Shown piece by piece: positions 10,803 through 31,574 of a DNA stretch of 49,457 nucleotides. Made by a program: the position numbers and the translations under genes. Each line of letters begins with the position of its first letter. Within the stretch, counting starts at the first letter, position 1. This DNA is from Alphaproteobacteria bacterium (GTDB lineage: Bacteria; Pseudomonadota; Alphaproteobacteria; Rickettsiales; JABCZZ01). Where the stretch lies: NCBI GenBank assembly GCA_013286285.1, contig JABDGA010000007.1, positions 1-49,457 on the forward strand, given 5' to 3'. The notes under the pieces were generated by a model. That model saw nothing but the letters and a program-made list of their open reading frames with translations, made no database searches and had not been told where the DNA came from.

Positions 10803-12383
10803 TCATGCCGCACGTAGCAAGCTGTAGCCGTCGCTTGTCTGACACAACTCAACGATGCCTGTTTCATCAATAACTGATTTTAATTGAGAAAAATCAATTG
10901 GTTTTGTTAAATATCCGATGGCGCCCAATGCCCTGGCTTTCTTCATGTCTTTATCGTAGCTGGATCCTGTGCACATCACTACGGGGACTTTGCGTAGCGC
11001 TTCGTTGGCCAGCATCCGCTCCAGCAGCTCGAAGCCGTCCATTTCCGGCATATTGATGTCCAACAACATCAGATCCACCGGCAGGTTTTCCTCTATTCTG
11101 CCCTGTAGCAGCGTAAGTGCCTCTTCTCCATTGCGGGCGACAAGAAGATTGCACCGTAATCCTGGTCGTTCAATAACCCGGAACTGGGTAATTTCAATAT
11201 CCGCCTTGTTATCATCCACCAGCAGCATATTGGCCAGCGGTTTTACATCGCTTTGGGAAGATTTGGGTACAGCGACCGTTTTCGGCAATGGAGGGCTGTT
11301 TTCCATGATCGCGGATAATGCCTTCGGCAGGGTGAATAGAAAACTCGTGCCCGCCCCTAACTGGGATTCACACCATATCTTGCCATCGTGGGACTCAACA
11401 ATTTTCTTGCATATGGCAAGCCCTAATCCCGCTCCTTGTTTTTCATGAAGTGTCAGGCGTTTGAAAGGCTCAAAGATCTTCTGAAAATGCACGCTGTCGA
11501 TGCCCGGGCCATTATCGCTGACGCTGAATAGCCAATGCTCCGGCTGTTCTTCGGCGTGTATATGTATGGTGACTTCTTTCTTGCTATGATGTATGGCATT
11601 GCTGATCAGATTTTGCAGCAATTGTATCAATTGCACGCGATTCACGTACACTTCCGGTAATGTGTCACAACGGATGACAGCGCCGCGCTCACGGATCAGC
11701 GTATCAAGATTTTCCTGCACTTCATGCAGTATTGCGGTGGTATTACAGTTTTCTCTGGCCATCTTTCGCGGATCATCCAGTCTTGTATAGAGAAACACGG
11801 TATCAATAAGCATGTGCATGCGATTCGCCGCATTCTGGATATGCTGAAAATACCGCCCGGTTTTTTCCGTGAAAGCGTTGGATTCGGCAATCAGTTCCGT
11901 AAATGACTGGATAGTGCGCACCGGCTCCTTTAAATCATGCGCAAGCGCATGGGTGAATACCTCCAGCGAGGTGCGCTGCTCATGAATGCGTTTCTGCAAG
12001 GTACAATGTTCTATTGCCATCTGGATCACATGATCCAGCATTTCCTGGGTAATATGAGATTTGGATATATAGTTCTGCGCGCCTTTCTGCATGGCTTCGA
12101 CCGCCACGTTCTCGTTGCCCTGCCCAGTCATCATAATCAGCGGCAGAAAAGGATAATTAAGGTGTATCTCTTCCAGAATCCGGATGCCGTTATGTCCAGG
12201 CAGCGAATAATCCAGCAGTACGCAGGCGGGCTGTTCATCCTTAATATACGCCAGCCCTTCTTCGCCATCGCTTGCCTCCAGGATAACATAGTTCCTGTCG
12301 GACATTTTTTTTAATGTCCGGCGGCAAAGAAGGCGATCGTCCTCATTGTCATCAATGACAAGTATTTTTACAGTGTTATCCAC
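10803..12383 (-). CDS. REC-histidine kinase-REC protein (soluble hybrid signalling protein)
   Basis: A 526-residue soluble protein. An N-terminal receiver has acidic pair DD at 11-12 and phospho-acceptor D58 in VLLDYSLPG. It is followed by a HisKA helix with FTHALAHDLKEPVRTIQSF (His near 150), an HATPase domain with SNAIHHSKK, DNGPGID and GAGLGLAICKKIVESHDGKI, and a C-terminal receiver with LMLLDINMPEMDG. No membrane segment. The chosen start is GTG at 12383, with AAGGAG just upstream and an 8-base overlap with the end of the preceding response regulator gene. A TTG further up would add eleven residues with no ribosome site. The position suggests it receives phosphate or signals from the upstream membrane kinase and single receiver. 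The final output is not visible. Confidence 0.88.
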   Translation of the reverse strand: MDNTVKILVIDDNEDDRLLCRRTLKKMSDRNYVILEASDGEEGLAYIKDEQPACVLLDYSLPGHNGIRILEEIHLNYPFLPLIMMTGQGNENVAVEAMQKGAQNYISKSHITQEMLDHVIQMAIEHCTLQKRIHEQRTSLEVFTHALAHDLKEPVRTIQSFTELIAESNAFTEKTGRYFQHIQNAANRMHMLIDTVFLYTRLDDPRKMARENCNTTAILHEVQENLDTLIRERGAVIRCDTLPEVYVNRVQLIQLLQNLISNAIHHSKKEVTIHIHAEEQPEHWLFSVSDNGPGIDSVHFQKIFEPFKRLTLHEKQGAGLGLAICKKIVESHDGKIWCESQLGAGTSFLFTLPKALSAIMENSPPLPKTVAVPKSSQSDVKPLANMLLVDDNKADIEITQFRVIERPGLRCNLLVARNGEEALTLLQGRIEENLPVDLMLLDINMPEMDGFELLERMLANEALRKVPVVMCTGSSYDKDMKKARALGAIGYLTKPIDFSQLKSVIDETGIVELCQTSDGYSLLRAA

Positions 12384-12837
12384 GAGGGCTCTCCTTCGGC
12401 AATAAGGCAATTTCAAACCAATATTCCTTCAGGCGTTTAATTGCTTCAATCAGGCCATCAAAATCCACCGGCTTCTGCACATAGGTGTTGGCGCCAATCT
12501 GGTAGCAGGCTTCGATATCACGCTCGTCGGAAGAGGTGGTAAGAATGATGACCGGTATGTTCTTCAGATCCGGATCCTGCTTTATGAGCTGAAGCGTTTT
12601 GCGACCGTCCAGGCCCGGCATATTTAAATCCAGCAGGATCAGCCCCGGCCTGTTATGATCCTGGTGTTTATAACCGCCGTCCTGCTTGAGACAATTAAGT
12701 GCTTCCTCTCCTGATCTGCACCAGATGACAGGATTATGTAAGTTGATTTTTTTAAAGGCGCGGATAGTGGCTTCATAATCATCTTCGCTATCCTCGATCA
12801 TCATTATCAGTTGGGCTTTGAGTGAAGAATTGCTCAT
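12376..12837 (-). CDS. Single-domain response regulator (Rcp1-like)
   Basis: A 153-residue receiver-only protein. The acidic cluster is MIEDSEDD, the phospho-acceptor lies in LILLDLNMPGLDGRKTL, the Thr switch is in VIILTTSSDE and the Lys is in VQKPVDFDGL. The loop before the phospho-Asp (GGYKHQDHNRPGLILL) is longer than in CheY and typical of Rcp1-type regulators that partner with phytochrome-like or PAS kinases of the same His-kinase class. AGAGGAATATA precedes the ATG. It follows the NIT/PAS kinase gene after a 149-base gap, and its stop overlaps the next gene's GTG start. It probably shuttles phosphate between the membrane kinase and the downstream REC-kinase-REC protein; that link is inferred from order only. 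Confidence 0.88.
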   Translation of the reverse strand: MSNSSLKAQLIMMIEDSEDDYEATIRAFKKINLHNPVIWCRSGEEALNCLKQDGGYKHQDHNRPGLILLDLNMPGLDGRKTLQLIKQDPDLKNIPVIILTTSSDERDIEACYQIGANTYVQKPVDFDGLIEAIKRLKEYWFEIALLPKESPRG

Positions 12838-12986
12838 TATATTCCTCTCTTGATTTAAAGAAACACTCTCTGATCCTGGCCTTCAATTACACTATGGCTC
12901 TTCGTTCCGTTGTTTAATAATATCCTGTTCTTTATATGGAAAATAAATTATAACACATTGCTGCCCTCATAGACAGAGGGAAATAC

Positions 12987-15335
12987 TTACGCACTTGGTT
13001 TTATATCATCATCCCCATATTTCAATGTAAAATAAAACGTTGTTCCCCGACCCACTTCGGATTCCAGCCAGATTTTTCCGCCATGGCGTTCGATAATCTT
13101 TTTTACGAACGTCAGGCCGACTCCCGTTCCTTCTTCACGTTGATCTTTTACGCTTTGCAGCCGCTTAAATATTCGGAATATTTCCTGATAAAATCCGGGA
13201 GCTATTCCTTTCCCGTTATCCTTGACATAAAATACGTCTGCGAGCGCAGGCGTTGTGGTGTCATTTGGCGGCGTATAGGTGCGTAGAAAGCCGATCTCCA
13301 CAATCTTCTCCGGATTATCGTTGTATTTTATCGCATTAGTGATGAGATTACGGAATGCCTCAGTAATGCGCGGCTTGTCACATATAATGGTGGGCAATGT
13401 CTCGGGAATGGTAATGCGGCCATGGCGTTCTTCCAGGAATACATCCAGCGTGCTTTCGATGTCATGGATTACGTCATTGATGTCTGTGGGACCGATGGCA
13501 AGCTCCTGTCGTCCCAGGCGTGAGAAATAGAGAAGATCATTGACCAGTCTTTCCATGCGCTGGCTGAGATAAGACAGACGCTCAAGTCGGGACACGCTGT
13601 CAGCATCCAGCGCCTCCCTGTTGTCTTCCAGCAGGAAGCGCGAATGATTGTGAATGCCACGCAAGGGCTCTTTCAGGTCATGCGATGCGATATAGGCAAA
13701 ATCGTCCAGCTCTTTATTGCTGCGTTCCAGCGCCTGCGTATAACGCACGAGTTCATGCCGGGCTTTTTTTTCTGCGGTTATATTTCGGATAACTTTCGAC
13801 GTGCCGATGATATTGCCGGACGAATCGTAAATAGGAGAGGCAATGATTGAAACATCAATATAATTCCCATCCTTGTGCCTGCGCAATGTTTCAAATTGGT
13901 TCACACCCTTGCCATGGGAGATTTGCGTAATGATATACTGCTCTTCTTCCACGCGCTCCGGAGGGATTATCAGGTTGATATGCTGGCCAATGGCCTCGGA
14001 CGGGCTATATCCGAGCACGCGTTCGGCGCCTGGGTTCCACGACATAATGATGCCGTCGAGTGATTTGCTGACGATGGCATTTTCCGAAGATTCAACAATG
14101 GCCGCAAGAAGCGAATGGGATTTTTCCGCCTGATGTATCTTTTCCGTATTCTGCTGAAACGCATGCAGCACCTGTGCAAGCTGTCCGATTTCGTCATGAC
14201 GCTCAAAAGTAAGCGGTGCGACGGATACCGCTTTGCCCTGGATGGCCTGCATTAATACCTCAATCATGGCATGGATTGGATTAATGACGCGGTACGTAAT
14301 TACACGAAAGCTATACAGGCACACACCCAGCGCGAGCATCAAAAATAGGGAGTTAAGCCATATTTTCCGCTGCGCTTTTAGTTCGAGAGCATCCACATAA
14401 CGCTGCGTCTCTTTTAAAGAGGCGTCTTTAAGGGCATCCAGCGAATCGGTGGTTTGTGATGCCATATCGAGCCAGAACGCAGCACTGACGGGATAGGAAG
14501 CGCCATGCTTCTTGCCGGGAATGTAGAAAATATCACGCGCCATGTCATATACGGTGAAATAATGGCTTTTGGCATCCTTGAAATAGGGCATGATATAGGG
14601 GTAAAGCCCTCCCTGATCGGCGAGCGTATCATTTAAGTACCAGCTTACCTCTACTGCTCCGTGCCACTGCAGCAGCTGCGCCTGTTCCTGCGGCGTCGGA
14701 TCCGCGTTTTCCGCTAATAGCCGCCCGATGAGAGAGCGCTCGCGTCCGGTATATTCCATGATGACTCCTAGAATATGCTTGAACCGCATATGCCGGATTA
14801 CAAAAGGATCAATAGCGGTGAAGTGCTTGATGAGCGCCATCCACAGACCCTGCGTCTGGATAATCATCGTTGTGGATTGTGTGAACCAATGCTGTGCAAG
14901 ATCGCGTTTCTGCGGATTCCGTATGGCAGGCTCCGCCGCGTGGCGTAATTCCTGTAATCCCGAATATTGCATTTCAATTTGCTGTACCATGCTATTGATT
15001 TCAGGAAAGTTATATTTCTTCAGCGAATCGAGCACCGTTCTTAAGGCCAGATCCGTCTGTGTCTGACTGTCTTGCAGTTTTTCCAGTAAGGTATTGCTAA
15101 CTTGCTCATGCGGCGTGCTGAGTATGGAATAAGTAATGTCGCGTTCGGCGGACAGCGTTTCTTCCATATCGAACAGCTCATCGCCCAATACCGTTACTGC
15201 CTTGAGAGTATGGATTTGCGACAGGCGTTGCCCTTGTACATAGGCTTCCTGTGCCACGAGTAATATAATCAGTAATGTCAGTGTCGCGATCGTCAGTAGC
15301 AGGATATTGCGGATGGAGAGTTTCTGTAATCCCAT
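12987..15335 (-). CDS. Membrane histidine kinase with NIT-like sensor, HAMP and PAS domains
   Basis: A 782-residue sensor kinase. One helix lies near residues 10-30, then an all-helical periplasmic region of about 300 residues with two ERxxxY/R-L-type segments (EETLSAERDITYSILS and TGRERSLIGRLLAEN). This resembles the nitrate/nitrite-sensing (NIT) four-helix-bundle domain. A second helix lies near 325-345, followed by HAMP, a PAS with PAC tail (NAIVSKSLDGIIMSWNPGAE; GNIIGTSKVIRNIT), and HisKA with FAYIASHDLKEPLRGI. The HATPase has NLITNAIKYND, DNGKGIAPG and GTGVGLTFVKKI. All catalytic boxes look intact. Its start shares one base with the stop of the yfiR-like gene (TAATG), so the two are co-translated. 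The ligand is unknown; nitrate is only one option. Confidence 0.85.
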   Translation of the reverse strand: MGLQKLSIRNILLLTIATLTLLIILLVAQEAYVQGQRLSQIHTLKAVTVLGDELFDMEETLSAERDITYSILSTPHEQVSNTLLEKLQDSQTQTDLALRTVLDSLKKYNFPEINSMVQQIEMQYSGLQELRHAAEPAIRNPQKRDLAQHWFTQSTTMIIQTQGLWMALIKHFTAIDPFVIRHMRFKHILGVIMEYTGRERSLIGRLLAENADPTPQEQAQLLQWHGAVEVSWYLNDTLADQGGLYPYIMPYFKDAKSHYFTVYDMARDIFYIPGKKHGASYPVSAAFWLDMASQTTDSLDALKDASLKETQRYVDALELKAQRKIWLNSLFLMLALGVCLYSFRVITYRVINPIHAMIEVLMQAIQGKAVSVAPLTFERHDEIGQLAQVLHAFQQNTEKIHQAEKSHSLLAAIVESSENAIVSKSLDGIIMSWNPGAERVLGYSPSEAIGQHINLIIPPERVEEEQYIITQISHGKGVNQFETLRRHKDGNYIDVSIIASPIYDSSGNIIGTSKVIRNITAEKKARHELVRYTQALERSNKELDDFAYIASHDLKEPLRGIHNHSRFLLEDNREALDADSVSRLERLSYLSQRMERLVNDLLYFSRLGRQELAIGPTDINDVIHDIESTLDVFLEERHGRITIPETLPTIICDKPRITEAFRNLITNAIKYNDNPEKIVEIGFLRTYTPPNDTTTPALADVFYVKDNGKGIAPGFYQEIFRIFKRLQSVKDQREEGTGVGLTFVKKIIERHGGKIWLESEVGRGTTFYFTLKYGDDDIKPSA

Positions 15336-15907
15336 TATTTGACTCCTTCCACAGAGGGGTGAATAACGGTCACCAGCTTTAACAGTCGCTCCTGCACGTG
15401 CAGATGTGCGGCGATCGTGGCATCCATATTCAGATCCGCGCTTATATGCGCTTCTTTCTTACCGAACTCTATCATACCCCCGGAGGCGGCAAACCCTTCA
15501 AAATCACTGACGGTCAATATGCTCTTGTCCGCCAGAAATTTTTGCAGCTCCGGCCATTGCTTTTTCTCTGCGGCATTCACAAATACAAGATTGCATGTGC
15601 CGGTTTCAGCGATGGCATAGGTAAAACGGAGCATTATTTCCACCCGGTTTACACTGCGCCCTGCCATAGGTTGCAGATATCCCTCAAACGGATCTTCACC
15701 AAATACACACACCGTCATGGAGGAAGGGGGAGCCGGCCATTCGGTATATTTGAGGAAGTTATACAGTAATCCTGCCTTGATTTCCTGTGCGTGCAGCTGG
15801 AGGGGATCGGTGGCGTAAGTAGATGTGCACAGCCCCAGCATCAAAGGCACCGCCATCGCAAGCCGCCTGAGGCGGAAGGGGTATCGCTCTGGCCTTAATA
15901 CTGCCAT
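15335..15907 (-). CDS. YfiR/DUF4154-family periplasmic protein
   Basis: A 190-residue exported protein with a signal peptide (basic RLRRLAM, then VPLMLGLCTSTYA). The mature region has the family features IKAGLLYNFLKYTEWP, CVFGEDPF, LVFVNAAEKKQ and the C-terminal SDFEGFAASGGMIEFGKKE. YfiR of Pseudomonas is a periplasmic redox-responsive repressor of the diguanylate cyclase YfiN. In many genomes DUF4154 proteins lie beside a TonB-dependent receptor and a membrane signalling enzyme. Here it overlaps the receptor gene by 13 bases and the kinase gene by one base. The likely partner is therefore the kinase encoded downstream rather than a cyclase; no GGDEF protein lies in the window. A second homologue is encoded at 28603-29205. 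Confidence 0.88.
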   Translation of the reverse strand: MAVLRPERYPFRLRRLAMAVPLMLGLCTSTYATDPLQLHAQEIKAGLLYNFLKYTEWPAPPSSMTVCVFGEDPFEGYLQPMAGRSVNRVEIMLRFTYAIAETGTCNLVFVNAAEKKQWPELQKFLADKSILTVSDFEGFAASGGMIEFGKKEAHISADLNMDATIAAHLHVQERLLKLVTVIHPSVEGVK

Positions 15908-17967
15908 GTAAGATTACCAAAGATGCTCTGGTTGATAAGGGCGGCATTTGCGTCGGTGGCTGAAGAGAATTCACGGTGCGGCGGGGCCAGCAGATTCTGT
16001 CCTACCAGGCTGAACTGAAGCCCGTTCATGATTTTCCAGGCGAGCCGCATATCCAGGCGCCAGTAGTCATCCACCGCATAGGCGGGCAGGGAGCTGACAT
16101 AATACAGCGTCGTATCGAAGGAGATATTCTTTCTGATGTCCCATTGCCCACGGATATTGAACTGGTAGGTTGGCGATTCCTGCTGGGCAAGCTCGGAGCC
16201 GATAGCTTGGTCGGGAGTGGGGCCGTGCAGATGCATTTCCAGGATGCTATAGGAGGTAGAGAATTTCAGGGTATCCAGCGCCCGCCAGTCCAGGACTGTC
16301 TCTATACCATGTGTCTCCCCGTAGGTATTGTTGGTGAAGGTCACAGGAAAAAGAAAATGCGCTGGCGGGGTGAAGACGATGGAAGGCGTAAGGAAATTCA
16401 GCGTCGCCAGATAGGTGTAATGGTTATAGAAGGCCGTTACATCCAGCAGGGTTTTAGGCGTCAGTTGGTTACGGTAGCCGAGTTCGTAGGCGATCATGTC
16501 CTCGCTGGCATAATAGTTGTTGGGCTGCAGCAAGAGTTCGGCAGGCGTGCCGCCCAGGGATAGGACTCCTTCGTTAATCGTCAATTCGCGCTCCAGGATG
16601 CTGGGGGTACGCACCGCCCGTGAAACCGAACCCCATGCCATCTGCCGATCATTTATCTGCCATTGCAGGCGTGCATCGGGCTCTATTTCAAACCCGGTAA
16701 AGTCATTATGCTCCAGCTTGGAGCCGAGCGTCAGGAACCAGTCTTGGGGTACAAGCGTGATTTTATCCTGAGCGAACGCATTCATGATATTGGTGGCCTG
16801 ATAGCCGTTCTGAAAGGTGATTATCTGTGACTGGGTCAGCTGATCTGCGTTATAACGGTAGCCTCCGCCTAGGATGATTTTGTGCCTGCCCAATGCCGGT
16901 AACGCATACTGGGCGTCCATATCCAATGTGGTCTCCCGATCCCCCAGAGTCAGCTGATCGCGGGAAGTATAATCCACATAACTCTGCACAGTGAGGTAGG
17001 AATCGTCAGAAAAAGCGCGGTTCCACCGTCCCAGTATATTAGCACCGCGGGCATCGATATTTTCATTCTGCAATTGCGAAAATGGAGACACAAATGTGGG
17101 AACGGAGCGGAAATCACTGGTATCGCTGCGATACATATCGCCCTGTACGGTAAAATCGTCCCGCGCGGTTTTGTCGTTTTTCCAGTCGGCGCGTAATCCG
17201 GTGCGTCCCTGTGCCAGCCCATCATGGGCGTCTGTGCCTGCGGGCGTGGTTTCATCGTTGCGATCCAGATATTTACCGTAGACACGGTAATAGCCGGCAT
17301 CGCCCAGCCTACCGCCGTAACGTTCCTCCACAATGCCTTTTTCCTGATTGCCTGCAGTCAGGCTTACCAGATTACCCTGCGTATCCTGCGCTTTTTTGGT
17401 AATGATGTTGATGACACCATTGACAGCATTGGCTCCCCATAACGCTGCTCCTGGACCGCGAATCACTTCTATGCGCTCAACATCTTCCAGCATCGTGTTC
17501 TGTATATCCCAATACACCCCGGCAAAGAGCGGATCATAGACTTCCCGGCCATCCATAAGCACCAGCAGCTTGTCGGCGAGTGCACCGTTAAAGCCACGCA
17601 CGCTTATGGCCCAACTGTTGGCATTGACCTGCGCGACTTGTACGCCTGGTACGATGCGCAACGCCTCCGGGATGGAAGTGGCACCCGACCGCAGGATATC
17701 TTCATTTGTAAGCACATACACGGCGGCGGGCGCATCCATCAGCTTTTCCGATGTCTTGGAAACCGACATCACCGTGGCATCGAAAAGCTGTTCTGGGGAA
17801 AGCTCAAAATTATCAACGTTCTCATTAGCCTGTGCCTCGGAAATCACGAAGGGAATAAGGACGGCTGCAAGAAAAAATGTCCAGCGTGCATAAAATGGGG
17901 AAGGCATAAAAGTTTTGCTATGACGGATAGAGTAGATCAGCGTGCCGAGGATAATTATGCTATTCAT
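15895..17967 (-). CDS. TonB-dependent outer-membrane receptor
   Basis: About 690 residues. The plug domain runs from near residue 60, with APAAVYVLTNEDILRSGATS, IPEALRIVPGVQVAQV and ERIEVIRGPGAALWGANAVN GV (broken here), the classic TonB receptor signature. The rest is a beta-barrel of alternating strands with aromatic girdles, ending NLTWQY. It looks like the IroN/Cir/colicin-I class, or the DUF4154-linked receptors whose substrate is unknown. The start is debatable. ATG at 17967 has AGGGA five bases away and gives a long N-terminus; ATG at 17907 gives a cleaner signal peptide (FYARWTFFLAAVLIPFVISE) but no ribosome site. It is first in the operon receptor-yfiR-kinase-regulator-hybrid, so it may act as the outer-membrane sensor of that system. 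Confidence 0.88.
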   Translation of the reverse strand: MNSIIILGTLIYSIRHSKTFMPSPFYARWTFFLAAVLIPFVISEAQANENVDNFELSPEQLFDATVMSVSKTSEKLMDAPAAVYVLTNEDILRSGATSIPEALRIVPGVQVAQVNANSWAISVRGFNGALADKLLVLMDGREVYDPLFAGVYWDIQNTMLEDVERIEVIRGPGAALWGANAVNGVINIITKKAQDTQGNLVSLTAGNQEKGIVEERYGGRLGDAGYYRVYGKYLDRNDETTPAGTDAHDGLAQGRTGLRADWKNDKTARDDFTVQGDMYRSDTSDFRSVPTFVSPFSQLQNENIDARGANILGRWNRAFSDDSYLTVQSYVDYTSRDQLTLGDRETTLDMDAQYALPALGRHKIILGGGYRYNADQLTQSQIITFQNGYQATNIMNAFAQDKITLVPQDWFLTLGSKLEHNDFTGFEIEPDARLQWQINDRQMAWGSVSRAVRTPSILERELTINEGVLSLGGTPAELLLQPNNYYASEDMIAYELGYRNQLTPKTLLDVTAFYNHYTYLATLNFLTPSIVFTPPAHFLFPVTFTNNTYGETHGIETVLDWRALDTLKFSTSYSILEMHLHGPTPDQAIGSELAQQESPTYQFNIRGQWDIRKNISFDTTLYYVSSLPAYAVDDYWRLDMRLAWKIMNGLQFSLVGQNLLAPPHREFSSATDANAALINQSIFGNLTWQY

Positions 17968-18281: not shown

Positions 18282-19094
18282 TTATATCCAGGCCATGACT
18301 TGTTGATATAGACCCTCCTTTGTCCCCATGCTGCCGGCTTCATCCTTCATAAGAAACGCTTCAAAAGGCTCCTGTGTCATTTCAGTTTTGGAGTGGCCGT
18401 TTATAGCGGTTACTGAAAGTGGGGCAGGGAATCGCTTTGGGGAGGGCAGGATAGAATCCCTTGCCAGTAGATGGCCAATTCCCTTGTTATCATTTAATAA
18501 GGAATGCGTGATATTGGTCTTTTTGCTCAGATTCTGCAGTATTGCATGTTTTACAAATATCCAGCCGGCGACGACTTTTTCTCCGGACTCCAACTCGGTC
18601 ACCGGCCCTATATGATTTACTGGCCATCCCGAATTTACAAAAACAGCGCGCCATATCAGCGGAGGCATCACCCCGATCATTCCCCGTATACCTACGGCTA
18701 AGGCATATTCGATTTTCGCCTGAAGAATTTCCAATTTTATTCTCTGGCGCATGGGTGCAGCCAACTCACTGTCGATACAGAAACGCGAGGATTCCCAAAT
18801 ATCGGGATGATTAGGCAGGACAATGGATGTGACCATGTCCGGCCACAGATTCTTGATCATATATTCCCTGTCCGTAGGGGCCATACGGGAGCAACCGCGT
18901 ACCACTCCACCCTGATCGCGCCAGATTACATATATTGTGGCAGGAGTATCATACGTGTCATATTCCATGCATTTAAAGGTAGGGATATCGTAGTTCTGGC
19001 GTGTCTTGAATTCTTTATAGCGGAGCCTGAGCATCTGGGGCACGACATCTCCATACTCATGAGAGTTTTCTATAGAGATTACGCATGGTCCCAT
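18282..19094 (-). CDS. luxI: LuxI-family N-acyl-homoserine lactone synthase with C-terminal extension
   Basis: A 270-residue autoinducer synthase that makes acyl-homoserine lactone from S-adenosylmethionine and acyl-ACP or acyl-CoA. The invariant residues line up: R25, F29, D46, D49, R70 (in RGCSRMAPT), E101 and R104 (in WESSRFCID). The position of the usual Trp34 is Tyr35. The first 200 residues cover the family. About 60 further residues beyond ILQNLSKKTN have no counterpart in standard LuxI (190-220 residues) and look Ser/Pro/Lys-rich and disordered. The start at 19094 was chosen for its AGGAGG with a 7-base spacer; a longer frame adds 22 residues of poor quality. It lies just downstream of luxR on the same strand, with a 20-bp palindrome between them. 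Confidence 0.9.
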   Translation of the reverse strand: MGPCVISIENSHEYGDVVPQMLRLRYKEFKTRQNYDIPTFKCMEYDTYDTPATIYVIWRDQGGVVRGCSRMAPTDREYMIKNLWPDMVTSIVLPNHPDIWESSRFCIDSELAAPMRQRIKLEILQAKIEYALAVGIRGMIGVMPPLIWRAVFVNSGWPVNHIGPVTELESGEKVVAGWIFVKHAILQNLSKKTNITHSLLNDNKGIGHLLARDSILPSPKRFPAPLSVTAINGHSKTEMTQEPFEAFLMKDEAGSMGTKEGLYQQVMAWI

Positions 19095-19150
19095 ACACTC
19101 GCCTCCTATTGAATTTAGAAGAGAGCTATGGCAATGGCATAAAAAAGTAA

Positions 19151-19170
19151 TGTCACCCAATCGGGTGACA
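19151..19170. promoter_or_regulatory. Perfect 20-bp palindrome between luxR and luxI (lux-box-like operator or terminator)
   Basis: The minus strand reads TGTCACCCGATTGGGTGACA, with 8-bp perfect arms around a 4-base centre. It begins at the base after the luxR stop and is followed by TTACTTTTTT. Two readings are possible: a lux-box-like operator centred 66 bases before the luxI ATG (20 bp is the usual lux-box length, but the CT-N12-AG consensus is not met), or a factor-independent terminator of luxR. It may serve as both. Confidence 0.6.
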
Positions 19171-19926
19171 CTATGCTATTGTGGTATATTTATGAGGTAC
19201 ATTAGGGTGTATTAACCCAAGCATTACCGCCTTTATGACGGCAAGCTGGATGGAATTGACTCCCAGTTTCAGATATATCCGGTTAATATAGGTTTTGACG
19301 GTATCGTCACTGATATTCAGGATTTCGCCGATGCTTGTTTTGCTTTTTCCTTCCGCTGCCCAGGTCAGGACCTCCTTTTCCCGCCTGGAAAGGTGGATGA
19401 CTTCCGTGTGCAGTTTTCTCTCTTTTTCCTGATAGAAAATGTGAAACTGGGAACATAAGGCGTAGACTAAGCCAAGAGTGTTTTTATCTGCCATGGTGCC
19501 TCCGGCACTGCTTGCCACTCCCATACCCACAATCTGGCCGCAAGTGCCATGCAGGGATAGCCCGATGCCGTCCAGCAATTTGGCTTCACGCGCTTCTTCC
19601 ATTAATATATGCTCATCACGCTCGATGCCATTTTTAAGCTTAGGCACCTGCTCCCATAAAAACGGCCCGGATTTTTGCTTGATAATCTTGATGACCGGAT
19701 CTACATCAAGATAGCCTTTGGAGAAATAATATTTCATCCAGTCTTCCGGATAATTTCTTAAGATGCCGTGGCCGCGTTTCTGGTGGAGGTGAGGGTGGTC
19801 GGTAATAAGCGAATACACCACCCTGTCAAATCCCAGTGATGCCAGGATTCTTTGCATAATATTGAAGGCTTCTTCAACATTATCCGCATTATTAATTGCG
19901 GCTATGTACTGGACAAAATCTACCAT
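19171..19926 (-). CDS. luxR: LuxR-family quorum-sensing transcription factor
   Basis: A 251-residue regulator. The N-terminal autoinducer-binding domain (about residues 20-165) has the conserved pattern W and Y in DWMKYYFSKGYLDVDPV, Asp and Pro in DVDPV, and the second Trp in GPFLWEQVP. The C-terminal GerE-type helix-turn-helix (LSRREKEVLTWAAEGKSKTS, IGEILNISDDTVKTYINRIY, LKLGVNSIQLAVIKA) is complete. It is expected to bind the lactone made by the adjacent LuxI and to activate or repress its targets. AAGGA lies about 11 bases before the ATG. The luxR-luxI order on one strand is common in alphaproteobacteria. It is the only recognised LuxR-type DNA-binding regulator in the window. Confidence 0.93.
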   Translation of the reverse strand: MVDFVQYIAAINNADNVEEAFNIMQRILASLGFDRVVYSLITDHPHLHQKRGHGILRNYPEDWMKYYFSKGYLDVDPVIKIIKQKSGPFLWEQVPKLKNGIERDEHILMEEAREAKLLDGIGLSLHGTCGQIVGMGVASSAGGTMADKNTLGLVYALCSQFHIFYQEKERKLHTEVIHLSRREKEVLTWAAEGKSKTSIGEILNISDDTVKTYINRIYLKLGVNSIQLAVIKAVMLGLIHPNVPHKYTTIA

Positions 19927-20647: not shown

Positions 20648-23368
20648 CTAAACACTGGCATCATCGCCGTTTTTGGGCAGGCGTTTTTCCAGGGGGGGCA
20701 GCCATTCCATGAGTATGTTATGTAGCGCGCCTTTGCGCAAAGGCTTGGTAAGATAATCATTCATGCCGGATGCCAAGCAGCGTTCCTTATCTCCCTTCAT
20801 GGCATTTGCAGTGAGCGCTATGATGGGAATATCCGCTATTTCACCGTGTTCTTTCATGCGGCGCAATATGGAACTGGCCTCAAAACCGTCCATCTCGGGC
20901 ATCTGGCAGTCCATAAGGATAAGATCAAAAGTGCGTTTCTTGACAATCTCGACGGCCTCTTCCCCATTATGCACTGCGGTCGGATGACAGGAGAGATTCT
21001 CAAGCAGCTTGATGCCAAGCTCACGGTTTGGCTTATTATCCTCCACCAGCAGTATTTCCGCATTTTTCAGAAACACATTATCTTCCGTCGGCACCGGGGT
21101 ATGTTTCTTGCCGGAAATAGCGGCAGGTATTGGTACACTTGTATTCTTTCCGGAACGTTTTGCTAAAAATACGGCTTCCAGCATGCTGATAAGCTGTGAT
21201 TTCCGGATTGGTTTGAGCAGGCAGGCGTCGCATATTCCATTGATAAACAGATGGGTACATCCTTTTTCCGCCAGTGAGGTAATAATAATATGCATATCCG
21301 GGCACCGCTCTTTTGCGCGTTTTATAAACGCCTCATTGCTGGCTTCCGATGCGGTGCCGTCGATGATCAACAGATCGAACGGCGTCTTGGCTTCCCTTGC
21401 CTCCTCAAGCATTTTCAACGCTGCAGGAAAATTATCGGTGCCAGAAGAGATAAGGCCGGCATTGCTCAATTGTTCCGCCAACAGGGTATGGCTGGGCTCT
21501 GCATCATCCACAAGCAAGGCTTTCTTGTCTTTTAATATCGGACTGTAAGAGGGAGGCTCTTTTTCCTGGGCTTCCTTGTCCAGTTTCAGGACCATGGAAA
21601 AGCTGAAGCTGGAACCTTTGCCGTAGATGCTTTCGGCAATTACCTCTCCCTGCATCATTTCTGCAAGCTGCCTGCAGATGGAAAGCCCGAGTCCCGTACC
21701 GCCGAATTTGCGGGTAGTGGAGGTATCGGCCTGGGTAAATTTCTCAAAAATAATATTCAGTTTATCTTTGGGAATGCCAATACCCGTATCCTGTACGGAG
21801 ATTTTAATTTTCACGGCGTTTGCAGGCACAATATCGGCCATTTTTTCGGCTGTAATTAATATATGGCCTTCTTCCGTAAATTTGATGGCGTTATTGATCA
21901 GGTTCGCCAGTATCTGCTTTACCCGCATGACGTCGCCTATGAGATGACGCGGCGTTCCGGACACAAAGCGTACTAACAGATCCAGTCGCCGATCCTTGGC
22001 CCTGGCCTTGGGGGCAAACAGCTCCAGCATATCCTCTATGGCGGTCTGGAGATCAAACGCTATCGGGTCCAGTTCCAGCTTGCCAGCTTCAATTTTAGAA
22101 AAGTCCAGCATGTCATTGATGAGCTCGAGCAAGATTTCTCCCGAGCTTAAAATGGTGCTGATATGGCTTTTCTGCTGTACCGTGAGTTCTGTTTCCATCA
22201 CCAGATCCGCCAATCCAATCATGCTGCTCAAAGGCGTGCGCATTTCATGGCTGATGTTAGCCAGAAAATCACTCTTTGCCTTGTTTGCAGCCTCTGCGGC
22301 CTCTTTGGCGCTCTGGAGGTCTATGCTGCGGGCCTTGAGCTGGTTGCTGGTGTAAAGAAGGTCCAGCGTGCGCTCACGTATCGTATGTTCGGTGCGCACA
22401 TTCTGCCCGATAAGATGAAATAGAAACGCTCCGGTCATACCGGAGAGCAGCACGCAGGTTGCCATCACGATCCAGGGCGCAAACGTGTTGGCCCGTGATA
22501 TATATTTGCTGGTGGGAATAAAAATGACCTTCCATTGCTGTGAAAACAGATGAATGGTTTCATGATAGGAAAACGCCGCTGTGTTGCTGATGATTTCAGA
22601 ATGCGGCAGGTCATGGTACAGAAATGCCTTATGCATGAAGGCATCCGGTTTGCCGTAGAACATTTTTTCCGTCCCGTCTTCAAGCACGTCAAAAATATAC
22701 TCACTGGTATTATCGAAACTTTCCTCATCACGTATGGCCTCAAACCGTGCCCCGGGATCTAAGAGTGCTACAATAGCTTCCGTTGCCTGTCCCGCGCGCA
22801 GCAGAGGAAAAATAACCGCTATTTTATTATCTTCTTCGGTATCGCCTGCGAAGGTAATCGGGGCGGTGGCTGCAGGCTTCCTGGTGGTAATGCTATTGAT
22901 AATGGCAGTAGTCAGCGATGATTGCAGGAGCAAGTCGTCGGGATTTCTTCCGCGTGTTACTGCGGATATCACCTGGGCATGTCTCGCGGTGATATTATCG
23001 ACTTTGACCAGATAGATTCCATTAAATACATCGCGTTCTATGGTGTGGTGTACGAGGATATGAAACATTTTTTCTTCGGAATCTTCATCCACCGCGCTTA
23101 AGAAATGTGATAATTTCTCGACTTCGCTTACGTTGAGCGAGAGCCAGTCCTTAAACATGTTAATCTGGAGCTTGCTGTCGCTGTTGAATTCTATTTCCAG
23201 CTGCTTTGTGTTAATGTGCAGCATGAGCACAAACATGAAAATAGCCACTGCGACTCCCACGCAGATAACAATCGTGGGCAATTTATATTTGTTTAACTCA
23301 TCATCAGACTGAGTCGGTGACGTATTGGAAGGTGAGGGGGCGGATAAATGTGCAAGCTTTGGTGACAT
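20648..23368 (-). CDS. CHASE-type membrane hybrid histidine kinase with two receivers
   Basis: A 906-residue hybrid kinase. One helix lies at about 30-50, a periplasmic sensor of about 240 residues resembles CHASE (HHTIERDVFNGIYLVKVDN; later FSQQWKVIFIPTSKYISR), and a second helix lies at about 300-320. HisKA has FLANISHEMRTPLSSMIGLA; HATPase has NLINNAIKFTEEGHI, DTGIGIPKD and GGTGLGLSICRQL. Receiver 1 (ALLVDDAEPSH, LLIIDGTA, LLKPIR) is more divergent but keeps its Asp and Lys. Receiver 2 (ILLVEDNKPN, LILMDCQMPEMDG, LTKPLRKG) is canonical. No HPt domain is attached and none was seen in the window. The gene starts 9 bases after the stop of the ethylene-receptor-like gene, implying co-expression and perhaps a joint complex. 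Confidence 0.9.
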   Translation of the reverse strand: MSPKLAHLSAPSPSNTSPTQSDDELNKYKLPTIVICVGVAVAIFMFVLMLHINTKQLEIEFNSDSKLQINMFKDWLSLNVSEVEKLSHFLSAVDEDSEEKMFHILVHHTIERDVFNGIYLVKVDNITARHAQVISAVTRGRNPDDLLLQSSLTTAIINSITTRKPAATAPITFAGDTEEDNKIAVIFPLLRAGQATEAIVALLDPGARFEAIRDEESFDNTSEYIFDVLEDGTEKMFYGKPDAFMHKAFLYHDLPHSEIISNTAAFSYHETIHLFSQQWKVIFIPTSKYISRANTFAPWIVMATCVLLSGMTGAFLFHLIGQNVRTEHTIRERTLDLLYTSNQLKARSIDLQSAKEAAEAANKAKSDFLANISHEMRTPLSSMIGLADLVMETELTVQQKSHISTILSSGEILLELINDMLDFSKIEAGKLELDPIAFDLQTAIEDMLELFAPKARAKDRRLDLLVRFVSGTPRHLIGDVMRVKQILANLINNAIKFTEEGHILITAEKMADIVPANAVKIKISVQDTGIGIPKDKLNIIFEKFTQADTSTTRKFGGTGLGLSICRQLAEMMQGEVIAESIYGKGSSFSFSMVLKLDKEAQEKEPPSYSPILKDKKALLVDDAEPSHTLLAEQLSNAGLISSGTDNFPAALKMLEEAREAKTPFDLLIIDGTASEASNEAFIKRAKERCPDMHIIITSLAEKGCTHLFINGICDACLLKPIRKSQLISMLEAVFLAKRSGKNTSVPIPAAISGKKHTPVPTEDNVFLKNAEILLVEDNKPNRELGIKLLENLSCHPTAVHNGEEAVEIVKKRTFDLILMDCQMPEMDGFEASSILRRMKEHGEIADIPIIALTANAMKGDKERCLASGMNDYLTKPLRKGALHNILMEWLPPLEKRLPKNGDDASV

Positions 23369-23377
23369 GGAACATAC

Positions 23378-23800
23378 TTATTTGTTGTGCCCATTATGTT
23401 CTTTCGTATTTTCTTCCAGTATTTCCATATGATCAAATGCCCGTAATACTTTAGGAACGACAGGAAGAATCAGTATTGCCGATGCGATGGAGACAATGGC
23501 AGTCATCGCCTTGACGATGGCTTCAATCCAGTAGACCCCTACCCAGATGGTCCATATTTCCAGCACATGCGTTGTGCCGCACATGAAAATAAATATGGAG
23601 AATAAGGCAAGCACCCATTTATAGGGAATGTTTCTGCGTTTGCGCATAATGTAGAGAAGCGTCATGGGAATGGAGTAATAGGCGATGACAATAGTGACAT
23701 CTGAAACCACTTGCAGCCACAAGAGCCCTGGGCGCCAGAGGATGCAATCCCCATGGGGCATAAATGTTTCCGATGATATCAGTTCCCAGATGGATGCCAT
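23378..23800 (-). CDS. Free-standing ethylene-receptor-like (ETR1 N-terminal) membrane domain
   Basis: A 140-residue, three-to-four-helix membrane protein that aligns by eye with the sensor domain of plant ETR1 and the cyanobacterial ethylene receptor. Residues needed for copper and ethylene binding in ETR1 all have counterparts: D34 (ETR1 D25), Y41 (Y32), I44 and P45 (I35, P36) in AYYSIP, and C74 and H78 (C65, H69) in MCGTTH. The segment IPYKWVLALFSIFIFMCGTT and the following VKAMTAIVSIASAI also match. In known receptors this domain is fused to GAF and kinase domains. Here it ends shortly after with a hydrophilic tail rich in His, Glu and Asn. The hybrid kinase gene follows 9 bases later. 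Ethylene binding is inferred, not shown. Confidence 0.85.
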   Translation of the reverse strand: MASIWELISSETFMPHGDCILWRPGLLWLQVVSDVTIVIAYYSIPMTLLYIMRKRRNIPYKWVLALFSIFIFMCGTTHVLEIWTIWVGVYWIEAIVKAMTAIVSIASAILILPVVPKVLRAFDHMEILEENTKEHNGHNK

Positions 23801-26253: not shown

Positions 26254-26298
26254 TGGTGCCCAGAGCCGGAATCGAACCAGCGACACAGGGATTTTCAG
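26254..26298. repeat. att direct repeat, left (tRNA-Phe 3' fragment)
   Basis: Forty-five bases identical to 31575-31619, i.e. the 3' half of tRNA-Phe from the anticodon arm to CCA. Sequence diverges immediately on both sides. It is the displaced end left by integration, not a functional tRNA. Confidence 0.92.
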
Positions 26299-26404
26299 CG
26301 CCAAATTGTTAATCTGGATTTATTATTAAACAACTACTTGCAACGCTTGTCACTTCTGCAACCGTAGCCAGATTATAGCTAATCCTACCATTATGCAGCC
26401 CTCC

Positions 26405-26424
26405 TGTGACACAGTTACGTCACA
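26405..26424. promoter_or_regulatory. Possible operator palindrome upstream of rep
   Basis: TGTGAC and GTCACA arms separated by eight bases, about 160 bases before the rep start in the 285-base leader between the left att and rep. It could be a binding site for a regulator of element replication. Six-base arms can occur by chance. I see nothing else convincing in this leader. Confidence 0.25.
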
Positions 26425-26583
26425 TGATGATGCGCGTAAATATTATAACAATTTTTAACCAATTATTCGGAATAGTTGCAATGAGCATCATTTTATTTGT
26501 CATTCCTATTAACGTGCCGCGAGCGCGCTGCACCGGAAGGATGAGGACAGCGCTAGCGAGCGGCCAGCATTCAGGAGTTTGTT

Positions 26584-27450
26584 ATGGTTCTGAAACCTCA
26601 GCCGGAGAGGGCTTGTCCTCTTAATACAATATCACAGTACAAACATTCATTCCCGGTTCATCGGCGTATCCTTCGTATGCAGCGCATTGTTTGCAACGCT
26701 GCTGCCCAGATTCAATTGGAAGTCGTACAGGCTGCCAAGGGCTTTCGTATGATGCCTTGGCTTATCACTCTTACCTACAAGGATGTGGATGGCTATCAAC
26801 CCGGCCATATCCAGCCCATGCTGGATTACCTGTATAAGTGGTTAAAGAGACAGCGTGTTAAACACTGGTGTTCATTATGGGTGGCGGAATTGCAGCAGCG
26901 TGGCGCGGTTCATTACCATATAGCAATCTGGCTTCCTTATGGCGTTACACCCCCTAAACCGGATAAACAAGGCTGGTGGAAGCATGGCTCCACAAATGTA
27001 AGAGACCAGAGTCGCCGTAAGCATAGGAATATCATCTCTTATTTAGCCAAGTATATCAGCAAGGGTACAGGCGCACGTGCGTTTCCCAAAAATTGCCGCA
27101 CCTATGGTTTTCGTAATTTATCTCCTCAGGCTAATTTTTATCGCCGTAAATATACAAAACTCCCTGCTTGGCTTATTCGTATCCTGCCGGATGATGCCAC
27201 TGCTGATAGATGCAGAGAGTGGCCGGATTATTGGTATTCCGAAGATACAGGGAAATCGTACCGGAGTCCCTATGAACTGGACTGGAAATACTCCAAGCTA
27301 ACCGAATATGCGCCTTCTCCTTATGACACTCTGCCATTTGATATAGATTTTATCGAAGATATGGAGGTATTTGACGGTAAATGGATTTGGCACACCGTAA
27401 ACGGGATAAATGCGGATAGGCGGGAGAATCAGGTCTATTATATTGATTAA
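26584..27450 (+). CDS. HUH-type rolling-circle replication initiator (G2P/Rep-like)
   Basis: A 288-residue protein. ITLTYKDVDGYQ forms the first strand motif of HUH endonucleases. AVHYHIAIWLPYG holds the metal-binding His-hydrophobic-His equivalent (H110, H112). The catalytic Tyr motif is ISYLAKYISKG (Y153/Y157, K160). This is the pattern of the REP_ORF2/G2P family of filamentous phages and small rolling-circle plasmids, which nick one strand at a hairpin origin. AGGAG with a six-base spacer precedes the ATG. The C-terminal 100 residues are rich in Trp, Tyr and Pro (WPDYWYSEDTGKSYRSPYEL) and have no helicase motif, so a host helicase would be needed. It is the first gene of the element. Confidence 0.82.
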   Translation: MVLKPQPERACPLNTISQYKHSFPVHRRILRMQRIVCNAAAQIQLEVVQAAKGFRMMPWLITLTYKDVDGYQPGHIQPMLDYLYKWLKRQRVKHWCSLWVAELQQRGAVHYHIAIWLPYGVTPPKPDKQGWWKHGSTNVRDQSRRKHRNIISYLAKYISKGTGARAFPKNCRTYGFRNLSPQANFYRRKYTKLPAWLIRILPDDATADRCREWPDYWYSEDTGKSYRSPYELDWKYSKLTEYAPSPYDTLPFDIDFIEDMEVFDGKWIWHTVNGINADRRENQVYYID

Positions 27451-27684
27451 TATATTGCTTTGCAAGCCATGTAATAAAAATTTAATATTTCCTCGCTATG
27501 AAGAAAGACTGTCAGAAGGTAAAATAATAGTGATTACTACCGGCTTGTTAAAATCCAAAAGCAATTATGTTTTGGATGTAATGCGTAGGTTGTAGCAGAT
27601 ACTCCTGTTGGCGCATGAGAATATTTGCTGAAGCATATATCATTTCCGTGATTTGGAGATGTTTTTTCTAAGGAGGAAAGAAAT

Positions 27685-28245
27685 ATGTCAAAAACAAAAG
27701 CGGCGTACCCAATTTTCGCCGCAATTTGCCTTAGTCTGATGCTGCTGATTGCCGCGTGTGCCGTCGGTAGTGCGGTAAAGCCTGCCACTTCTACTACACC
27801 CACGGCTACACCCACGGCGTTGTGGACTGCATGCCCGTTGACTTCGTATGGCTCTTCCCCAGTATACGAGCCGATGAAAGTGCTGGGCACCCCTATTCAG
27901 GGAATGGCATTCTTTGGGAAAACTGGTAAGGATAACAGCGATTGGTTTGGACTATCCTCTGTTTTTGCAGAGCAGGTAGCTAATAACCGTGTTAGCCTTA
28001 TTGTACCTTTGAAAGTACACTTCTTCGCCTATAAAGTGGGTGATTGCTTGTCGCAGGGAGCATTGTTGTTTGAGCCGGTACGGTATCCTTCTTCCCAAAA
28101 GGAACTTAATTTCCTGACAGGAGAAACGGCGCACAATTTGGGAGGAGTAAATGTTTCCGGTATGGGGACAACGGTAGATATAAAAAACTACCGTGAAGTA
28201 ACCACGCGTACTATCCCTGCGGAAGTCACTATCCTGCTCTCATAG
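27685..28245 (+). CDS. Putative lipoprotein of the integrated element
   Basis: A 186-residue exported protein. It has a basic start, a hydrophobic segment ending LLIAAC (lipobox) and a Thr/Pro-rich linker (STTPTATPTA). A globular domain with two Cys follows (ALWTACPLT; YKVGDCLSQ). No family recognised. AAGGAGG eight bases before the ATG is the strongest ribosome site in the element. A clear terminator follows 22 bases after the stop, so it forms its own transcription unit. The 234 bases between rep and this gene hold nothing obvious. Exclusion, adsorption or envelope modification are possible roles for a lipoprotein carried by such an element; none is supported directly. Confidence 0.7.
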   Translation: MSKTKAAYPIFAAICLSLMLLIAACAVGSAVKPATSTTPTATPTALWTACPLTSYGSSPVYEPMKVLGTPIQGMAFFGKTGKDNSDWFGLSSVFAEQVANNRVSLIVPLKVHFFAYKVGDCLSQGALLFEPVRYPSSQKELNFLTGETAHNLGGVNVSGMGTTVDIKNYREVTTRTIPAEVTILLS

Positions 28246-28267
28246 GGGATAAGCCGGGCAGTAATTG

Positions 28268-28294
28268 AAGAGGGTGCGCCAGCCCTCTTTTTTT
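28268..28294 (+). terminator. Factor-independent terminator after the element lipoprotein gene
   Basis: Stem AAGAGGG/CCCTCTT (28268-28274 with 28283-28289), 8-base loop, followed by a run of T to 28294. Placed 22 bases after the stop codon. Confidence 0.85.
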
Positions 28295-28411
28295 ATGTCA
28301 TAAAATTTCACCATAGGAAGATAAAAGCTAGCAGATTGTTTCGGTCCGCTAATATTTTTCCAACATATTTTTGACCAAATTTGGTTTCTAATATATACTG
28401 ACAATTGAGGG

Positions 28412-28598
28412 GCTCAAATCCCCGTTTGTGCGAATTTGTAGGCTCGTGTCAACAAGTCTTGCTTCCGGCATGTCGTGTCGGGAGTAGACCAAATATAATA
28501 CCCGAAAGGGGAATAAGTCTGCGTCCAAACGGCGTTTGAGCTCCCGATTCCAGTCGGTTTATCCGGCTGGAATTACTCCAACTCAAGGAGTCGGGAGC
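28412..28598 (+). promoter_or_regulatory. Highly structured leader upstream of the element yfiR-like gene, with alternative pairings
   Basis: Two nested long-range pairings close the upstream part: GCTCAAA (28412-28418) with TTTGAGC (28535-28541), and CCGTTTG (28422-28428) with CAAACGG (28526-28532). Inside are AGAC/GTCT and CCC-GAAA-GGG (28501-28510). Downstream, GCTCCCGA (28540-28547) pairs with TCGGGAGC (28591-28598), enclosing a 10-bp hairpin (28548-28572, one G-U) and a CTCC/GGAG hairpin (28576-28590). CTCCCGA can instead pair with TCGGGAG at 28478-28484, so two structures compete. The downstream form buries the AAGGAG and GGGAG that precede the ATG at 28603. It could be a cis-regulatory RNA, or a single-strand DNA origin or packaging structure. 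Confidence 0.6.
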
Positions 28599-28602
28599 AT
28601 AT

Positions 28603-29205
28603 ATGACAGACGAACCGAATTGTATTATCAGGCATCATCAGTCAGCAATCAAGCAATTCATTATTATAGCTTTAATTACAACATACTTATTCGTAGCCTT
28701 ATCCGCACAGGCAAACGAGGCTTCTGAGGAATACTCTATCCGAGCCGCTTTTATCTATAATTTTCTGAAATTCGTCACATGGCCGGGGAAGGACTCTCCC
28801 AGCAAAACCGGTACAGCAACCATATGTGTTCGTGGCGATGTAAGATTTGCAGCCTATCTCCGCACATTACAGGAGAATAAGGCTCAAGGCATTGCCCTTC
28901 GCGTCAATTATCCTGTTACTGCCAGCACTGTTTCCTTGTGCCAAATCCTTATTATAGGTGAATTAGATGAAAAATGTCTTGCTCCTATTCTTGCAGATGC
29001 AAAACACTATCCGGTTTTGACTATAAGCGAAATCAGAAACTTTGCCGATAATGGCGGGATGATAGAAATGGTGCAGGCTGAAAATACGATTGGCCTGTTT
29101 TCCAAGGATAAAATCAATCTGCGGATTAATATCAGCAACGCGCAGCATAGCGGCCTTATTATTGATGCAAGGTTGCTACAAATCGCCGCTGAGGTGATTA
29201 AATGA
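28603..29205 (+). CDS. YfiR/DUF4154-family protein carried by the integrated element
   Basis: A 200-residue exported protein. The N-terminal signal is FIIIALITTYLFVALSAQAN; the mature part opens YSIRAAFIYNFLKFVTWPGK, the DUF4154 hallmark, and has ATICVRGDVRFAAYL, CQILIIGELDE and ISEIRNFADNGGMIEM. It is clearly related to, but diverged from, the chromosomal homologue at 15335-15907 (shared YNFLK-x-WP, C-x-G and GGMIE). YfiR proteins act in the periplasm on inner-membrane signalling enzymes. No partner receptor, kinase or cyclase is encoded on the element, so it may act on a host partner, for instance altering biofilm or envelope signalling. The long structured leader ends four bases before the ATG. 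Confidence 0.85.
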   Translation: MTDEPNCIIRHHQSAIKQFIIIALITTYLFVALSAQANEASEEYSIRAAFIYNFLKFVTWPGKDSPSKTGTATICVRGDVRFAAYLRTLQENKAQGIALRVNYPVTASTVSLCQILIIGELDEKCLAPILADAKHYPVLTISEIRNFADNGGMIEMVQAENTIGLFSKDKINLRINISNAQHSGLIIDARLLQIAAEVIK

Positions 29206-29245
29206 CTTGTTATGAAGTTGGATATATAGTTTCATAAGTTTACGC

Positions 29246-29429
29246 ATGAAAGCCTGCCTCCCGGCGAGGGCAGGGGATAAAAGAGTCAAGCTAAAAACAG
29301 GAAGCTTCATGCATTGCGAATGAAAGCCTCTTTTCCGTTAAGAGGAAAAAGGAAGGTTCGTTAGTCCATGCCATTATATATCCATGAAAGCCTGTTTTTA
29401 TCTTGACGCATAGGGGGATTGCGCCCCCT
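29246..29429. repeat. Triplicated ATGAAAGCCT repeats with hairpins
   Basis: ATGAAAGCCT occurs at 29246, 29320 and 29384. The first two copies run directly into hairpins (CCTGCC/GGGCAGG; CCTCTTTTCC with GGAAAAAGG). The stretch 29285-29310 is an imperfect inverted copy of 29383-29407 (about 25 bp). A GGGGG/CCCCC hairpin follows at 29412-29429. There is no coding sequence in this 265-base space. It could be a single-strand origin, packaging signal or iteron-like Rep site. Confidence 0.65.
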
Positions 29430-29470
29430 TCCATTCATCTGTAATATGTTTCAATACCTACGGACATTTT

Positions 29471-29803
29471 ATGGAAAACGAAGCGCTATTAGCCTATCTG
29501 GATAAAATCTGCACCGATTTCGATGGCGATTCCACGCAACTGGAAACAGCGATTGGCGCTTTCATCTTCGGGCGGCATTTGGGCTGGAAGCCTCTGTTTT
29601 TAATCCATAGCAAACGAACCATGAATAAATATCAGGAGATATTAGGCTTGGATTTCCGCAAGGAATTACCTGAAGTTGGCAAACTGGCACGAAAATCGGT
29701 TGCATGGCGCTCTGCGGAAACGCTTTCCAATTTCTGGAAGGCCGTTACCGGAAATACTCCCGGCCATCGTTCCACCGAGATAGATAAAAAGCCACCTAAA
29801 TGA
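29471..29803 (+). CDS. Hypothetical protein of the integrated element, 110 aa
   Basis: A soluble, largely helical protein. It begins MENEALLAYLDKICTDFDGD and has a central segment GAFIFGRHLGWKPLFLIHSK and a basic, Pro-containing tail. No family recognised. There is no strong ribosome site, but the ATG follows a T-rich stretch 42 bases after the last hairpin of the repeat region. Codon use looks ordinary. It lies between the YfiR-like gene and the excision/integration module, so a role in maintenance or copy control is possible but unsupported. Confidence 0.55.
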   Translation: MENEALLAYLDKICTDFDGDSTQLETAIGAFIFGRHLGWKPLFLIHSKRTMNKYQEILGLDFRKELPEVGKLARKSVAWRSAETLSNFWKAVTGNTPGHRSTEIDKKPPK

Positions 29804-29887
29804 ACTATTGTTCATGCGAATTGAACTTGCATTCATTCCCTATTTCTGTCATACTGGCTTTGTGGGTAAATGAATGTGGAGCGTTTT

Positions 29888-30169
29888 ATGCGTTATCATG
29901 TTTCCTGCAAATCTCCGATTTCTCGTTTTCCGAGGAATCTGGTGTATCTCGTAGATGATGTAGGCTTCGATATTGAAGCTACTGACCCCGGCGAAGCTTT
30001 ATTTCTGGCGTCTATTCGCGTTTTTGGGATTTTATCCAAGGCTGGCAAACGCGGTGCGGCTCTATATCAGAAATCGTTTGGTCATTCTTTTGTATCTGAT
30101 GGTATCCGGCCTGTTCAGGATTGGCTGTTTGTAAATTGTAATGTGAAATCAGTTAATGATTGTAATTGA
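29888..30169 (+). CDS. Hypothetical protein of the integrated element, 93 aa
   Basis: Begins MRYHVSCKSPISRFPRNLVY with later segments EALFLASIRVFGILSKAGKR and FVNCNVKSVNDCN. No family recognised. The frame opens six codons earlier at 29870, but ATG 29888 has GGAG with a six-base spacer and is preferred. Small, basic and probably cytoplasmic. It sits just before the excisionase-like gene. Confidence 0.5.
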   Translation: MRYHVSCKSPISRFPRNLVYLVDDVGFDIEATDPGEALFLASIRVFGILSKAGKRGAALYQKSFGHSFVSDGIRPVQDWLFVNCNVKSVNDCN

Positions 30170-31572: not shown

Positions 31573-31574
31573 AA

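Follow-up and report, generated by a model that had tools for sequence, protein, structure and literature searches.

Nearly all work on YfiR proteins concerns their role in Pseudomonas and E. coli as the inhibitor of a single biofilm cyclase. In the YfiBNR (TpbB) system of Pseudomonas aeruginosa, it was demonstrated experimentally that YfiR represses a PAS-domain enzyme and is itself sequestered at the outer membrane. The YfiR-binding motif of P. aeruginosa YfiN is AAVVF, and two cysteine pairs have been distinguished in YfiR: the redox-active Cys71/Cys110 and the structural Cys145-Cys152. Malone et al. 2012 (PMC3375315) described divergent Yfi systems in which sensor histidine kinases, HPT, GGDEF-EAL or MCP outputs take the place of GGDEF and from which YfiB is usually missing; the kinase outputs were reported, on the basis of in silico analysis, for a "YfiR-YfiN[PAS] core". 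The coupling of YfiR to a kinase, considered novel in an earlier note on the DNA analysed here, had therefore already been described. The term 'TonB' does not occur in the main text of that article.

The locus of interest resides in a 49,457-nucleotide stretch of alphaproteobacterial DNA (hereafter the window). It is composed of five genes, given here from the upstream end:

15895-17967, minus strand: TonB-dependent receptor (TBDR) of 690 aa, with its ATG at 17967 and the reading frame open to 18234
15335-15907, minus strand: YfiR/DUF4154 periplasmic protein of 190 aa with a signal peptide (Pfam DUF4154, E 8.5e-34)
12987-15335, minus strand: membrane histidine kinase of 782 aa (Pfam NIT, PAS, HisKA and HATPase)
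12376-12837, minus strand: single-domain response regulator, Rcp1/RcpB-like (Pfam REC, 1.2e-20; Asp70)
10803-12383, minus strand: REC-HisKA-HATPase-REC protein of 526 aa (Pfam), with a GTG start at 12383

This gene set (TBDR, YfiR, NIT/PAS kinase and two regulators) is the one recognized in the earlier note, and it was confirmed by Pfam. The overlaps of 13, 1 and 8 bases reported there are borne out by the coordinates: they span the receptor stop (15895) and the yfiR ATG (15907), join the yfiR stop and the kinase ATG (both at 15335), and span the REC stop (12376) and the GTG of the REC-HK-REC gene (12383). Between the kinase and the first regulator there is a gap of 149 bp, which weakens the claim of a single transcript for the window genome. 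A terminator-like site on the operon strand was looked for in this gap and none was seen, and the counts of promoter-like and terminator-like sites in the operon region were not above those in shuffled sequence.

The receptor has a CirA-like plug and barrel (Pfam Plug, 1.4e-23; barrel, 7e-23), with the colicin I receptor CirA (2hdf) as its best solved relative (E 7.7e-24); these were its only Pfam domains, and no STN signalling domain was found. The kinase is composed of a TM helix, a periplasmic NIT domain (residues about 30-325), a second TM helix, a HAMP-like region, PAS, HisKA (His552) and HATPase, an arrangement (NIT between two TM helices, followed by a kinase core) that places it among the NIT-domain histidine kinases. 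Its core gives its best matches with bacteriophytochromes, and the HATPase is of the bacteriophytochrome type. The single-domain regulator belongs to the Rcp1-like proteins (RcpB 1k66, E 5.4e-37; Rcp1 1i3c, 2.4e-28). Phospho-acceptor residues are present in the REC-HK-REC protein (Asp58, His149 and Asp442), as well as in the kinase and the single-domain regulator. Neither of the two regulators contains a DNA-binding domain detectable by Pfam.

The YfiR protein is a clear member of its family: the DUF4154 match covers positions 2-141 of 143, a hydrophobic leader is present, and the protein aligns with the solved YfiR structures 4yn7/5y61 (phmmer, E 2e-7). The mature form has two cysteines, Cys67 and Cys105, which correspond to Cys71 and Cys110 of P. 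aeruginosa and are nearly invariant in the family; the Cys145/Cys152 pair is absent.

A second, solitary YfiR gene (28603-29205), with neither a kinase nor a cyclase gene beside it, is carried in the window by an integrated element of approximately 5.3 kb (26254-31619). The element is bounded by 45-bp perfect direct repeats (26254-26298 and 31575-31619), the second of which lies inside a tRNA-Phe gene, and it encodes a tyrosine integrase (30523-31572) and a G2P-like rolling-circle replication protein (26584-27450). A mobile element with a free YfiR could tamper with YfiR-controlled kinases of its host. Relatives of YfiR were also sought in viral contigs, and none were found there.

The order of the five genes is kept in four other alphaproteobacterial genomes: the complete genome of a member of the same genus (locus L033) and three soil MAGs (L166, L167 and L168). 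A scan of genome contigs with the YfiR pair of the window and L033 as query yielded L166-L169. The 13-bp receptor/yfiR overlap was found again in L033, L166 and L167, and in all four orthologous operons the regulator gene abuts or overlaps that of the kinase, as opposed to the 149-bp gap in the window. The fifth protein of L168 is more diverged, with identical domains (Pfam). The YfiR proteins of the five genomes, only about 50-63% identical, form one clade with full support in the YfiR tree. Directly upstream of the receptor gene of the window (18282-19926, minus strand) there are genes for a luxI-type autoinducer synthase and a luxR-type regulator; these were rejected as parts of the system, because they are not found upstream in L033 or L166-L168. 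Elsewhere in the window (20648-23800, minus strand), a 140-aa ORF with an ETR1-type ethylene-receptor N-terminal domain (PF25487, 7.9e-38) is followed just downstream by a hybrid histidine kinase, the two forming a split ethylene-receptor-like pair.

A search for the DUF4154 domain gave hits in 22 of 386 alphaproteobacterial genomes and in 84 of 397 Pseudomonadota genomes. The neighbourhoods of the resulting 106 YfiR loci, a sample that includes near relatives within some families, were fetched and classified by phmmer with the window proteins and by motif rules. A histidine kinase gene lies directly downstream of yfiR in 66 of the 106 loci, always within 50 bp, and YfiR-HK fusion proteins, confirmed by Pfam, are encoded at two further loci, compared with 20 of 106 loci at which a GGDEF enzyme is found downstream. 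According to the tree listing, 27 families are represented among the kinase loci and 10 among the GGDEF loci. In both fusions (L157, 4121-6088; L161, 4085-6055), DUF4154 precedes HisKA/HATPase, and a TonB receptor gene adjoins. Of the 66 kinase loci, 52 have a TBDR gene no more than two genes away, as do both fusion loci; the same holds for only 4 of 20 loci with a GGDEF enzyme. The complete same-genus genome has just 6 TonB plugs in 2.6 Mb, so that the chance of a TBDR being adjacent can be estimated at about one per cent (assuming about 2,500 genes). Two further arrangements are L039, in which a single kinase is served by two YfiR genes, and L042, with two tandem YfiR-kinase pairs; at neither is there a TonB receptor within two genes.

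The earlier note had granted that its claim of novelty would fall if GGDEF enzymes were the regular neighbours of YfiR and the kinase incidental. The preponderance of kinases (66 plus two fusions versus 20 GGDEF enzymes) and the concentration of TBDRs at kinase loci point the other way: the kinase gene regularly and closely accompanies those of YfiR and the receptor. Together with the order kept in five genomes, the position of a kinase after YfiR in 66 of 106 loci makes the gene association more than a matter of chance. Of the trans-envelope variant proposed in that note, the regular linkage of kinase, YfiR and receptor therefore stands, and the novelty of YfiR-kinase coupling as such does not.

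What is unusual in the window, and was missed in the earlier note, is the periplasmic part of the kinase. The CHASE8/YfiN-PAS docking domain is present in almost every YfiR-linked kinase but not in that of the window. Pfam detects CHASE8 in most of the YfiR-linked kinases and in the tested cyclases. A CHASE8 profile, iterated on the partner set itself, matched 65 of the 66 kinase partners and all 20 cyclase partners, weak members such as L034 and L037 being assigned by this profile rather than by Pfam. As a control, 45 kinases and cyclases that are not YfiR partners were scanned with it; the only matches were two GGDEF proteins, both of which adjoin YfiR in another gene order. Counted by alignment column, the docking Phe of AAVVF is aligned in all 85 CHASE8 partners (65 of 65 kinases and 20 of 20 cyclases) and is followed by Asp in 63 of 65 kinases and 20 of 20 cyclases. 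The presence of CHASE8 and of the invariant Phe in kinases and cyclases alike indicates, at the level of sequence, that YfiR and its CHASE8 receptor are one module with interchangeable outputs, which agrees with the proposal of Malone et al. Loci of this common type (TBDR, YfiR and CHASE8-like kinase) occur in the genome of the window itself (L037, on contig C6, with the receptor three genes away) and in the same genus (L034); CHASE8 and NIT variants thus coexist in one genome.

The sole kinase partner in the survey without CHASE8 was the orthologue of the window kinase in L033. In the window kinase no CHASE8 match was obtained even at E 10 and the AAVVF motif is also absent; the kinases of L166-L168 gave no CHASE8 match either. 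In its place Pfam reports NIT in the window (9.9e-9, above the cut-off) and in L168 (2.6e-9), with L033 below the cut-off and NIT not among the Pfam matches of L166 and L167; over the NIT region, the four relatives align to the window kinase at 41-51% identity. A sequence profile of this region found no significant solved relative; the fold search succeeded instead. The AlphaFold2 model is all-helical (mean pLDDT 82.8), and the predicted fold matches NasR (4akk) with Z 27.6 over 276 residues (Foldseek E 1e-4), the next structure having Z 14.5; the TorS sensor fold was also among the matches. Two arginines, Arg65 in helix 1 and Arg200 in helix 5, do not vary among the five orthologues. In their helix positions they resemble the predicted nitrate pocket of NasR, which holds E175/R176 on helix 5, a similarity suggestive of putative nitrate/nitrite binding.

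In this lineage, then, a NIT domain has most likely replaced the CHASE8/PAS docking domain, with YfiR and the TBDR retained. As the YfiR tree has no support at its deep branches, the direction from CHASE8 to NIT rests on rarity (5 NIT rows versus 85 CHASE8 partners) and not on rooting. The NIT region is kept in all five orthologues, among which the cytoplasmic PAS domain is swapped or lost; such a pattern would be expected of a periplasmic face that contacts a conserved partner. The missing docking surface is the main difficulty, because a kinase with neither CHASE8 nor its motif cannot be bound by YfiR in the known way: either YfiR has acquired a surface that binds NIT, or control by YfiR has given way to sensing through NIT.

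We consider it rather probable that the five genes form one envelope-spanning phosphorelay that is gated by YfiR, which now acts on a NIT-type sensor. Its physical contacts (YfiR-NIT binding included), sign of control, ligand and direction of phosphotransfer we infer as follows. The TBDR, the proposed outer-membrane partner, would occupy the place held by YfiB in P. aeruginosa; the two are unrelated proteins, and sequestration of YfiR by the receptor is proposed by analogy. YfiR would be the periplasmic go-between and the NIT-HAMP-PAS histidine kinase the inner-membrane enzyme. If YfiBNR is a guide, free YfiR would bind the periplasmic domain of the kinase and lock it in a single state, probably the inactive one. 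The pool of free YfiR, and thereby kinase activity, would change when the receptor is occupied or moves, and the oxidation state of Cys67/Cys105 may provide a further input. Once released, the kinase would phosphorylate the Rcp1-like regulator, the receiver domains of the REC-HK-REC protein, or both. With NIT in place of CHASE8, YfiR might dock through a new surface; alternatively, the kinase might combine the YfiR input with that of a small ligand, for example nitrate.

In a rival explanation, the kinase is an ordinary NIT nitrate/nitrite sensor and the receptor and YfiR share its transcript as relics of a displaced CHASE8 kinase, exerting no control. The fold match to NasR, the invariant Arg65 and Arg200, one of them on the helix that bears E175/R176 in NasR, and the absence of the CHASE8 docking domain would all fit; we nevertheless judge this unlikely, as an uncoupled YfiR is expected to be lost or relocated, whereas YfiR, receptor and NIT kinase have stayed together, overlapping or abutting, in five genomes despite the divergence of their YfiR proteins. 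Receptors are often regulated by neighbouring two-component systems, and the kinase and regulators could set the expression of what would be a receptor for some scarce nutrient, with YfiR acting on some other CHASE8 protein. The same genome does offer a CHASE8-type YfiR-HK pair (L037) and the solitary YfiR at 28603-29205, but neither neighbouring regulator has a DNA-binding domain, and the strict phylum-wide adjacency of YfiR and kinase, like the YfiR-HK fusions, points to direct pairing; we give this explanation little credence. Chance adjacency or a mis-called operon, for which the 149-bp gap before the first regulator might be cited, is scarcely believable given the order in five genomes, the overlaps at most junctions and the phylum-wide association.

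A broader and more tentative view, to which we lend somewhat less than even credence, is that YfiR is a portable periplasmic adaptor by which TBDRs command histidine kinases, that this is its commonest wiring in the sampled Pseudomonadota, and that here it has been moved from CHASE8/PAS to an unrelated NIT domain. In our sample, YfiR is most often encoded next to a histidine kinase and a TonB receptor. This suggests that there is a general, little-explored route from outer-membrane receptors to the cytoplasm, and the NIT variant represents a natural domain-swap experiment on what YfiR recognises. In the open-access literature we found no paper on the pairing of TBDR and YfiR and no description of the CHASE8-to-NIT swap; the usual TBDR partnership of YfiR-kinase pairs and the NIT swap of the window thus seem to be undescribed.

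Several known systems share part of this design. Like YfiBNR, the locus places a YfiR gene beside that of a two-TM inner-membrane enzyme, pairs it with an outer-membrane protein and retains the equivalents of Cys71/Cys110; it differs in having a HisKA/HATPase kinase and not a GGDEF output, a TBDR instead of a Pal-like YfiB, and a NIT domain in place of CHASE8/PAS with the docking Phe. The divergent YfiR-YfiN[PAS] kinase systems (PMC3375315) are similar in that YfiR lies beside a sensor histidine kinase and YfiB is absent, but they keep the PAS/CHASE8 docking surface that the kinase of the window lacks. In accessory-protein kinases (QseG-QseE, PMC12691602; TorT-TorS), a periplasmic or outer-membrane accessory protein also acts on a histidine kinase; here, the accessory protein is of the YfiR family and a TBDR is encoded in the same operon. 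NIT sensors (NasR 4AKK, the McpN/PilJ chemoreceptors and NIT kinases) share the two-bundle all-helical fold predicted by the model, whereas the kinase of the window is encoded with YfiR and a TonB receptor. In FecA/FecR/FecI, the signal of an outer-membrane TonB receptor reaches the cytoplasm via an anti-sigma factor; the go-between in our locus would be a soluble YfiR and a phosphorelay, and its TBDR, unlike FecA-type transducers, has no STN domain according to Pfam. Finally, bacteriophytochromes commonly pair with Rcp1-like single-domain regulators, and such modules are the nearest to the kinase core and single-domain regulator of the window, whose kinase differs from them in lacking photosensory domains and in having a membrane NIT domain as its input.
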